Positions 5,639 to 43,955 of a stretch of 64,000 bases of DNA are shown piece after piece. How positions within the stretch are numbered: position 1 is the stretch's first letter; every line of letters starts with the position of its first letter. The notes below the pieces were generated by a model that did no database searches, was not told where the DNA came from, and saw only the letters and a list, made by a program, of their open reading frames with translations. The position numbers and the translations under genes are program-made. Source of the DNA: Stanieria sp. NIES-3757 (GTDB taxonomy: Bacteria > Cyanobacteriota > Cyanobacteriia > Cyanobacteriales > Xenococcaceae); NCBI GenBank assembly GCA_002355455.1, contig AP017375.1, positions 1,550,001-1,614,000 of the forward strand. Direction: 5' to 3'.

Positions 5639-6540
5639 ATGAAGTATTCCAGTAGCCTTAGCGATGAAGAATGGGAAATTCTAGAACCCCTGTTAGTTAA
5701 GATATTGCCGACTAAGAAGCAAACCCGACCTGCCAATTGGACAAGGCGAGAAATCCTTGACGGAATACTCTATCAACTCAAAAATGGTTGTAATTGGGCA
5801 GACTTGCCCAAAGATTTACCTCCCTACTCAACTGTCTATTGGCACTACAAGCAGTGGCGAAAGGTAGGGGTGTTTGAAAAGCTCATGAATGCCTTACATG
5901 AACAAGTACGTCAGCAGGTTAAAAAAAACCTAAGTGGACAACATTAATAATCATTGACTCTCAAGCCGTGAAAAATACCTGTAATGCCAGTGTCGCTTCC
6001 AAAGGCTTTTGTTTTTACAAAGCCACGAATGGGATTAAAAGACATCTGGCAATTGATACACTGGGATTTCCTTTCTTTACCCACTGCACACCAGCAAATG
6101 TCTCGGATGATGCAGGATTGATTGAGATGCTGACGCTAAATATTGACTATTTCCAGTCAAAACCCGTTAACCTTCCGAAGCTCACTATTTTGCTAGACCA
6201 CGGATATCATCCCGAACATTTGACTGAGCAATTGGAGCAAGTTTATCCCGAGATCATGACGAAAATCAAGTTTGAACTGTCCACCAAACCCTCGAAACAA
6301 GAGAAGGCAGCGCAAGGGAAATCTGGATTTGTTCCTGCTGTTGCTCGCTGGGTGATTGAACGCTCAAACGCTTGGATGGAGCGTTGTAAAAGTTTGGTTA
6401 AAAACTTTGAGCGCGAGATACGCGGAGGTTTCCTCCGCTTGTAGAATCGCGCTGTTGAGCGAACTTTATCTCATGCGACTGCCAAGATCGATCTCTGCTT
6501 CGTCAGATTAATGCTTAAGCGGCTTTCAGTCTCTTCGTGA
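5639..6540 (+). pseudogene. IS5-family transposase, split by frameshift and interrupted by a 48-bp insert
   Basis: A DDE transposase. Part one (from ATG at 5639 to a stop at 5947) has the N-terminal domain with LSDEEWEILEPLL and the NGCNWADLPKDLPPYSTVYW region. Part two is in the -1 frame and carries the first catalytic aspartate (IIIDSQAVKNT), the second (ILLDHGYHP) and the glutamate (RWVIERSNAWMERC). The join lies at a run of eight A at 5921-5928; slipping back one base gives VKKKPKWTTLIIIDSQ. That is the usual layout for programmed -1 frameshifting in this group, so the split may be functional. In addition, a 48-bp insert at 6414-6461 brings an in-frame TAG at 6442; behind it the frame continues as TLSHATAKIDLCFVRLMLK to TGA at 6538. 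All catalytic residues precede the TAG, but the last 30 residues are lost. Confidence 0.85.
6409..6461. repeat. 48-bp palindromic small repeat inserted in the IS5 transposase, with GAGCG duplication
   Basis: GAGCG at 6409-6413 is repeated at 6457-6461, and removing 6414-6461 restores a normal transposase reading frame and protein, so this is an insertion with a 5-bp target duplication. The insert has a central hairpin GCGGAGG-TTT-CCTCCGC (6422-6438) inside an outer stem AGCGCGA/TCGCGCT (6410-6416 with 6447-6453). It encodes no protein, so it would need help from another enzyme to move. Confidence 0.85.
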
Positions 6541-42792: not shown

Positions 42793-42922
42793 ATTTTAAA
42801 TTTGAATCTAAATCAAAAAAAATAATTTGGTTATTACTTTGGAATAAAATCGTACATAAGTATTGTCTTGTCAAAGTTTGGCTCAAAACTTGACTATAAA
42901 ATTATAGTCATTTCAATTAATT

Positions 42923-43802
42923 TCAGTATGATTTAACAAGGTCATAGAGTGTAGTATCTGGAGTTGAATAAATGCGCCTCTTCTTAATGACAGCAAAGTC
43001 TTGTTCAATACGGTTAAAATCGGGAGAATAAGGAGGCAAAAATCAAACTGAATGACCCGCCTCTTGAGCGATTTTGTACACATCATTCTTACGATGGAAT
43101 GGAGCATGATCAAGAATCAAGGTGGAATTGGGGTTCAATTCAGGAATCAAATGATCTTGAAGCCACTGATTGAACCATCGAGCATTAGTACTACCTGAAA
43201 ACAACACTGGAGCCAATAATTTTTTTCCTCTGCTTGCTCGGTCTTTACGCTGAGGTTTCCTCAGCGCAGGCGGTGCGCTTTTTGCTGCAATCAGACTAGT
43301 TCGAGTTCCTCTTCTACCATTTCGTTCACCATCAGAGTTTTGTCCTCTTGTCGACCAAGCATAGGGACGATATGTATCAGCTTCAAAACCAGACTCATCT
43401 ATATATACTATGTCTTGTGAACTTTGTTCGATAACAATTTGACGTAAACTTCTCAAAAAGATAATCCGTAGTTTGTGTTGACGTTCACTGTCTTTAAAAG
43501 TTTTTTTTTCGAGTCAATTTCATTTGGTGATTCGCATACCAAATCGCACTTTCTCTTACTCCAAAATATTGAGCGCGCTCTCTAAGTAAAGCATCCGGAA
43601 ATTCTTGTATATGGCGTGCAAGAGCTTCCCAGTCTAGTTTTCGTTTTCTTCTTTTGACTATTTTTGGAGTCAAATCCCCTCTTTTACACCAATCATTTAC
43701 ACACCATAGACTTACTTCGTATCGTCTTGACGCTTCTGCTTTGGAACCACCTTTTCTAACAAATGCTACTACCCGTTTCCGTAAATCAATACTGTAGGTC
43801 AT
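42923..43802 (-). pseudogene. IS630-family transposase with three lesions
   Basis: It starts with MTYSIDLRKRVVAFVRKGG and a helix-turn-helix. At a run of nine A (near 43504) the frame stops (KKNF); reading back one base continues as KTFKDSERQHKLRI, so it is either programmed -1 frameshifting or a lost base. The DDE domain has the first Asp (VYIDESGFEADT) and the second (LILDHAPFHR). Inside it is a 48-bp in-frame insert coding for SAPPALRKPQRKDRA. A TGA at 43043-43045 then replaces a Leu codon in HSV-FLPPYSPDFN; the catalytic Glu (NRIEQDF) lies beyond that stop. The copy is therefore dead even if the frameshift is natural. Confidence 0.88.
43232..43287. repeat. 48-bp palindromic small repeat inserted in the IS630 transposase
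   Basis: Insert unit 43236-43283, flanked by TGCT copies (43236-43239 and 43284-43287; a further TGCT at 43232-43235). It holds GCTGAGG-TTT-CCTCAGC (43250-43266) and a second stem AGCGCA/TGCGCT. The core GAGGTTTCCTC and the flank TACGC are shared with the insert at 6414-6461, where the third stem pair is G-C instead of T-A. Confidence 0.78.
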
Positions 43803-43955
43803 TTAACTAGTATTTTTCTGAATCTCACTTTCATTATTTCATACGTTTCTTATTTGAAATGACTATAAAAGATGTTTAGGCGAGTTGTCGCCAAAAAAAA
43901 CTACCATAAAAACACGTTTTTAAAAATCAAAGCAATACTTATTTGCTTGAGCGAA

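Follow-up and report, generated by a model that had tools for sequence, protein, structure and literature searches.

A 48-nucleotide hairpin family of cyanobacteria that lies mostly in or beside genes of insertion sequences

The transposase gene of an IS630-type element in the genome of Stanieria sp. NIES-3757 (5.46 Mb, two contigs) is interrupted by a 48-bp insert that belongs to a family of short hairpins of cyanobacteria. Members of this family have fixed ends, follow a five-base A-run that can already be present in empty relatives, covary in both arms of their stems and, in their canonical form, lie mostly in or beside genes of insertion sequences (IS), where the identity of one stem pair is associated with the reading frame. 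In our reading it is a mobile hairpin of insertion sequences, similar to RPE and REP. That it is a mobile hairpin family is very probable; the fuller description, a very small non-autonomous mobile hairpin of cyanobacteria with an RAAAA target, situated mostly in or beside IS genes and moving as folded single-stranded DNA, has in our estimate an even chance of being correct.

In such an element the imperfect hairpin alone (48 nt in subfamily A, 51 nt in subfamily B) would be the entire content. Its insertions would have constant ends, lie 3′ of five-base A-runs (RAAAA on one strand) and show no visible target duplication. We infer that it moves as folded single-stranded DNA and that an IS200/IS605-like (HUH) enzyme acts in trans; movement as single-stranded DNA with an HUH-type enzyme, taken by itself, is somewhat doubtful. 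Host insertion sequences would then multiply and take the copy between genomes, and copies that are readable in the local frame would survive because their transposase remains functional despite the 16 or 17 added residues. A more specialised version, in which these undescribed 48-nt hairpins are parasites of insertion sequences, falls a little short of an even chance: they would insert at A5 sites in the transposase, TnpB and IscB loci of numerous IS families and ride between cyanobacteria and phages, with stems adjusted or chosen in both arms so that the transposase remains readable.

An in-frame hairpin in an IS630-type transposase gene

Coordinates in Table 1 refer to the window, i.e. the whole 64-kb stretch of DNA that was analysed. 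A preliminary description of this DNA had reported two 48-bp inserts, one in an IS5 and one in an IS630 transposase. Both exist, and each amounts to a net 48 bp when compared with empty relatives (IS630) or an empty paralogue (IS5). The IS630 insert had been placed at 43232–43287; the insert is real, and its exact limits differ (Table 1). It keeps the frame and lengthens the protein by 16 residues (SAPPALRKPQRKDRAS), as had been stated. A comparison with empty sites in related IS630 copies, proposed in the same description, confirms the insert: the relatives L126, L127 and L128 from other genomes lack exactly these nucleotides in one 48-bp gap. The IS630 copies L129 and L133 likewise lack the insert, in less clean alignments.

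Table 1. Features of the two insert-bearing elements in the window
Feature	Position	Strand	Basis or remark
Family C hairpin insert, 48 bp, in IS5 transposase	6412..6459	+	TTGAG at both ends; in-frame TAG
IS630-type host element	42902..43868	-	HTH_Tnp_IS630 and DDE_3 matches; bounded by inverted repeats
Inverted repeats of the IS630-type element	42902-42936 and 43834-43868		Repeat search
IS630 N-terminal ORF (HTH)	43494..43802	-	HMM
IS630 DDE ORF with in-frame insert	43043..43456	-	TGA end precedes NRIEQ motif
Family A hairpin insert, 48 bp, TGC...GCGC	43231..43278	+	Single gap against relatives; model R1, 66 bits
Inner stem, 8 bp, 3-nt loop	43248..43266	+	Pairs tested; contains core 43252-43262
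Outer stem of the insert	43236-43237/43275-43276 and 43239-43244/43268-43273	+	Within 43236..43276
Target flank TTTTT (AAAAA on the other strand)	43279..43283	+	Consensus RAAAA^ of flank groups

One C–G pair of the family's outer stem is broken in the window copy. The TGA that ends the DDE ORF lies downstream of the insert and ahead of the NRIEQ motif, which suggests that this IS630 copy is probably dead now. The window contains HIP1 octamers and gives no Rfam match at the gathering score. The IS630 element of the window has no match in the plasmids searched.

Two subfamilies spread among cyanobacteria and a phage

A covariance model, R1, was built from six copies of the IS630 insert's family and includes the T-tract. 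It finds nine full copies in the Stanieria genome, at 64–73 bits, with the next match at 24.5 bits. The copies fall into two sister subfamilies, A (48 nt) and B (51 nt). Matches with E ≤0.001 occur in 39 of the 100 genomes searched (own genome included): every one of the 27 from the same taxonomic family, and 12 among the 73 others. The 107 R1 matches were reduced to 92 tabulated ones and to 89 after removal of flank duplicates; of the 15 that were not tabulated, 12 are contig places seen twice and three are near repeats (L124, L177:468-520 and L198:6177-6229).

A sequence pattern that excludes the T-tract matches 56 stretches in named genomes, all cyanobacterial by title, with Xenococcaceae, Prochloraceae, Okeania, Hyella and others among the carriers. 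The 48-nt length is found in 63 of 69 copies, but the pattern itself prescribes the length along with many bases of the stem and of the loop side, so that neither this share nor some of the invariant columns in the alignment of subfamily A are free results. Two family A copies (L279 and L103:1769-1820) carry additional sequence in or beside the outer stem and may be nested or rearranged hairpins.

The family also reaches a phage. In the Microcystis phage Ma-LMM01, the only one with a match in the phage collection searched (two records), a copy lies in frame in the TnpB gene gp031 (L282:2501-2553), and by eye it occupies the same K^K position as the copy L111 in the same-genus genome G001. The tip of the phage copy reads GAAT-TCG-ATTC instead of GAGG-NNN-CCTC; this adds two paired changes at pairs that alignment A3 shows as invariant. 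The element gave no match in a pattern scan of IMG/VR or among PLSDB plasmids. A literature search, mostly of papers available without subscription, turned up no description of this hairpin family.

Insertion 3′ of RAAAA with fixed ends

When the flank is read on the strand on which the insert begins GCGCACC, A occupies positions −5 to −1 in 73, 93, 82, 86 and 93% of 83 flank groups and position −6 in 39%. AAAAA directly precedes the insert in 45 of these 83 groups against a background of 0.55% per position. These figures come from R1 matches and are biased because the model contains the T-tract; in the set found without the T-tract, AAAAA precedes the insert in 20 of 30 flank groups. Insertion takes place 3′ of RAAAA, with fixed ends.

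The A-run is present in the empty relatives L128 and L284. No target duplication is visible in the empty-site alignments, where one of 1–3 bases could hide in shared bases. A further IS630, present in four copies (L067), gives another empty site: against plasmids of Stanieria PCC 7437 and Gloeothece PCC 7822 its match lengths differ by 48, and the local alignment splits the 48-base gap into 44+4. The foot of the hairpin shows no evident guide sequence that could pair with AAAAA.

Paired changes in both arms

In subfamily A (29 distinct sequences) 99.1% of pair cells are standard, the changed cells comprise 34 both-sided and two one-sided changes, and 0 of 500 shuffles reach the covariation score. 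Two of the five measures for A lie within the range of the shuffles, namely both-sided changed pairs (18/500) and further pair types (354/500). In subfamily B (28 distinct sequences) 96.7% of pairs are standard, 60 changes are both-sided and three one-sided, and 0 of 500 shuffles reach any of the five measures. Slid controls score far lower in both subfamilies. The preliminary description had suggested that the folded form matters and that unpaired drift in the stem would speak against it. In the aligned copies one-sided changes are few, and within the true family the suggestion is well supported by covariation, a pattern that copying of one arm from the other could also produce.

The T–T mismatch at columns 5/41 is invariant in A, partly since the T-tract-free pattern fixed those bases, and a T–G pair occupies columns 9/37 in 27 of 29 A sequences. 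When treated as DNA, the window copy folds more stably than shuffled sequences on either strand (z of −2.15 and −2.68), and the fold is limited to the inner stem plus a small hairpin beside it. Two IS1 copies, L072 and L073 (assigned to IS1 by similarity seen by eye and by the HMM match of L117, a similar copy), share a B insert and its site, while the loop is flipped (AAA versus TTT).

Among the changed pairs of both subfamilies, G–T wobble intermediates are nearly absent, which argues for pairing that acts at the DNA level, or for an arm copied from the other arm, rather than for a selected RNA. This bears on two other explanations. Most forward copies consist of a GC-rich hairpin followed by a T-tract, as in a terminator, and the target is the complementary A-run; an RNA intermediate might pair its 3′ U-tract with the target A-run, whose 3′ end would prime reverse transcription. 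A route of this kind is said to have been proposed by Elhai in 2008 for cyanobacterial SDR elements. The scarcity of wobble pairs runs against the expectation for a structure selected as RNA, the flank preference is confined to five bases, and neither a transcript nor a master copy was seen; we regard the RNA route as unlikely. The alternative of template switching during replication, between short A/T tracts, with the arms matched by quasipalindrome correction, would make the pairing a result of copying and not of selection. It accords with both-sided changes that have almost no intermediates, with loop flips such as that from TTT to AAA between L072 and L073, and with the lack of a visible target duplication. 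Microhomology alone, however, would hardly produce the same ends and the same length in unrelated genes, in different genera and in a phage, and template switching is rather improbable as a full explanation. The mobile hairpin that moves as folded single-stranded DNA remains our preferred reading.

Host genes

Most copies of the canonical A form lie in or beside genes of other mobile elements. In the set found without the T-tract, the ORF or an adjoining fragment has a transposase or TnpB HMM match in 22 of 30 flank groups, collected in three rounds (13, six and three) from representatives of the crossing ORFs. Several of these matches are fragments below the curated whole-protein cut-off, the match of L174 is weak (E 0.009), and in L155, L164, L185 and L209 the match falls at one end of the copy-bearing stretch or next to it. 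Flank groups may split one site (L158 with L185; L159 with L188 and L156), and the independent events would therefore be fewer than 30. A further group, L182, has its copy at the beginning of an IscB-type RRXRR/HNH gene. L156 and L188 resemble TnpB tails by eye, without HMM confirmation. The contexts of five of the 30 groups are different or unclear: an AAA ATPase gene (L190), a position beside a glutamyl-tRNA reductase gene (L183), L161, L168/L170 and L196.

In the Stanieria genome, transposase genes hold eight of the nine copies (four of five sites) and the remaining copy is in a DUF29 gene. For comparison, 21 of the 695 A5 sites of the window fall in its two IS, against which four of five sites in transposase genes gives P 4e-6.

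Subfamily B and the 49-nt variants of A show a weaker bias. In the 54-row set used for their bias, 18 rows lie in transposase or TnpB genes (16 by an HMM match, either of the row itself or of another copy that shares its flanks, two by similarity) and six in other genes (D5-type, N6 methylase, Uma2, Mom, HepT-like and DUF29), whereas the other 30 have no gene assignment and many are apparently intergenic. In four relatives these variants often lie outside recognisable genes. Thus, the IS bias is limited to canonical A.

In Okeania, seven copies (L159, L165, L169, L188, L199, L203 and L205) are near the 3′ end of tnpB, L159 according to an HMM match and the others according to similar flanks. 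A guide RNA scaffold is expected at this end of the gene. In L159 and L165 the frame is broken near the TnpB C-terminus.

The IS bias might reflect survival and not targeting, if the inserts damp the transposase through an mRNA hairpin or the extra peptide and their carriers are tolerated longer. The bias is strong even in single-copy flank groups, and 17 near-identical IS5 copies have spread with an insert of their own, of family C (below); both facts agree with damping, which nevertheless leaves the mechanism of insertion unexplained. We consider damping quite improbable; it is compatible with the mobile hairpin.

Reading frame and a stem pair

Forty-seven copies are crossed by an ORF, which stays open in 32 and is broken in 15. 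Read antisense in one phase, family A encodes AHRPR-X, and a T at stem column 18 creates a TGA stop. In this stop-prone phase, column 18 is C or G in 15 of 17 copies, and the opposite arm carries the matching base; the figure for the other frames is two of 16. The association has p 1.6e-5 by copy and, with 9:1 versus 2:7, p 0.005 by site; the latter, counted by hand and leaving out the mixed site L097/L207, is the safer value, as related copies within one IS are not independent. The test used 33 of 65 copies, the other 32 having no crossing ORF by the analyst's limits. Among these unused copies, some at the DDE_5 site (L176, L180, L192 and L200) have C at column 18 where T would be harmless. 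At the mixed site, L097 has T and a stop, whereas L207 has C and an open frame.

The association and the L097/L207 pair suggest that the host ORF matters, and pairing seems to be kept when the codon is altered or chosen. The link between stem pair and frame points to simultaneous selection on fold and coding. Because some copies that have spread carry stops, translational bypassing of the inserts was also considered as a possibility. The predicted inserted peptides of 16 residues include the types SAPPALRKPQRKDGA and AHRPRRGFLGVRTEQ.

Y1 transposases near the element

The preliminary description proposed that a transposase of the TnpA-REP kind recognises the hairpin, and suggested a genome search for a REP-associated tyrosine transposase. 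The search yields three Y1 transposase genes in the Stanieria genome (L210–L212), two of which (L211 and L212) are RAYT-like. R1 finds no family copy at the three loci, and the repeat next to both RAYT-like genes is another one, of GTAG type, GTAGGTTGG...CCCAAC. The host RAYTs were rejected as movers on these grounds. The repeats beside L211 and L212 have the form GTAGGTTGG(G/A)T...AACCCAAC and represent a GTAG-type REP of the genome itself.

With four Y1 proteins as queries, a Y1 match was found in 13 of 190 loci, and none could be tied to the element. In L123 and L124 the copy is within the Y1 gene itself, and in L099, L248, L273 and L282 a Y1 gene adjoins the copy-bearing TnpB gene. The remaining matches are in L159, L171, L177, L193 (the same contig as L099), L205 and L251. 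A RAYT-like match of 42 residues in L202 ends ~110 bases from a copy; it is a short remnant upstream of the DDE transposase ORF in which the copy lies. In L251, an IS200-type Y1 gene (2248-2700) that is 75% identical to L210 lies ~700 bases from a family A copy, which interrupts an N6-methylase gene.

Of the TnpA-REP proposal, a general resemblance to IS200/IS605 thus survives, in the five-base 5′ flank and the lack of a visible duplication; a classical REP moved by a RAYT is very improbable despite the three Y1 genes and the L202 match, as the hairpin has no GTAG foot, the genome's RAYT-like genes adjoin another repeat, its Y1 loci hold no family copy and the L202 match is a remnant.

Relation to known elements

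In-frame mobile hairpins are already known; the present family is distinguished by its very small size, its link to RAAAA and its concentration in insertion sequences. The Rickettsia palindromic elements (RPE) have counterparts in Wolbachia. According to the cited parts of the literature, RPE are palindromic, have spread, and lie in frame in protein genes, with which they are translated (PMC2229807, PMC10969869). By description, the present hairpin is likewise a palindrome in frame in genes that have empty relatives. RPE are about 105–150 bp long and occupy many cellular genes; the cyanobacterial element has 48 or 51 nt, an RAAAA flank and mostly transposase genes as hosts.

The GTAG super-family of REP/RAYT elements, which includes the cyanobacterial GTAG-15/16, is described in the cited passages of PMC3733652 as short imperfect hairpins with alternative complementary stem residues, and the element resembles REPs in both respects. 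Unlike REP/RAYT systems, it has no GTAG foot (its conserved foot reads KCTTGC / GGTGCGC in A, TTGG / CC..GC in B), is not found beside RAYTs and often lies within genes. It also has few G–T pairs, while GT pairing is often observed in REPs according to those passages (PMC3733652). CGTC-tagged REPs are hairpins without a dedicated transposase, and element A also contains CGTC; there it is paired in the outer stem (columns 7–10 with 36–39), whereas in CGTC REPs it is an unpaired tag. For the CGTC repeats, the results of the source, as far as cited here, list five phyla that do not include cyanobacteria, and the looser abstract places both super-families in cyanobacteria (PMC3733652).

With IS200/IS605 the element shares a five-base 5′ flank, with a drop at −6, and the lack of a visible duplication; ISDra2 of this family inserts 3′ of a fixed pentanucleotide (PMC2806898, cited part). 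Unlike IS200/IS605, it has no tnpA and consists of a single hairpin. In the section cited, ORFs of the 107-bp Correia element form fusions with transposase genes of three classes (PMC2229807). Correia is there a MITE with terminal inverted repeats, TA ends and target duplication (PMC2229807), whereas the present element has no visible duplication; the same difference separates it from a MITE of a DDE element.

The short length recalls other repeats of cyanobacteria. SDR elements, reportedly described by Elhai in 2008, are said to be tiny cyanobacterial repeats of 21–27 nt with paired changes; the present hairpins are also tiny, cyanobacterial and changed in pairs, and differ in their length of 48 or 51 nt. 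We know of no RAAAA flank for SDRs. To our knowledge, no earlier element lives chiefly inside the transposase genes of other mobile elements, and this would be the first. It would also rank with the smallest known mobile elements. Its fixed ends, five-base target, empty sites and sequenced phage carrier make it a clean system for the study of gene-free mobility.

The IS5 insert belongs to another family

The preliminary description regarded the inserts in the IS5 and IS630 transposases as two copies of one element. The likeness itself was described correctly: both contain the core GAGGTTTCCTC preceded by TACGC, and their stems are one paired change apart. A common family is refuted, however, by R1, which aligns to the IS5 inserts at positions 16–33 only, with an E-value of 0.33, compared with 64–73 bits for full copies, and by the IS5 insert having relatives of its own. 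The two inserts are different elements, and the compensating change seen between them therefore compares unlike things; paired changes are abundant within each subfamily of the IS630 insert. Kinship on the basis of the core motif alone was rejected, too. In the window the 11-base core has two matches at ≤1 mismatch, a number that 15 of 100 shuffles reach, and genome-wide it has 30 exact matches against three for the reversed pattern, 17 of the 30 being copies of one IS5. Since R1 meets the IS5 inserts in the tip only, GAGGTTTCCTC is a tip common to different hairpins.

The IS5 insert, assigned here to family C, is a net 48 bp against the insert-free paralogue L063. Each of the 17 near-identical IS5 copies that were found in the genome contains it, and they have multiplied with it despite the in-frame TAG. 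A pattern made from it has 25 matches at ≤3 mismatches and none for the reversed control: the 17 IS5 copies, five stretches judged to be relatives (L218, L227, L232, L234 and L237) and three judged unrelated (L233, L235 and L236). The closest relatives have GCGAGATATGC...GCATATAGAATCGC in common, and TTGAN flanks the relatives on both sides, except for L227 with ATGAC on the left. The general form of family C is about TTGAN + NGCGAGATATGC-stem-GCATATAGAATCGCNGTGTTGAN, which resembles a split HIP1 (GCG...ATCGC). SDR5 inserts inside HIP1, and family C resembles this arrangement as it is described in the cited part of PMC4390886.

A third type of hairpin, GGGGCnTATAAACTCTkGAGGTTTCCTCmAGAGACAGCCCC, is found at L012 and L022 (C1:1745598 and C1:3466298) and has the same tip, GAGGTTTCCTC.
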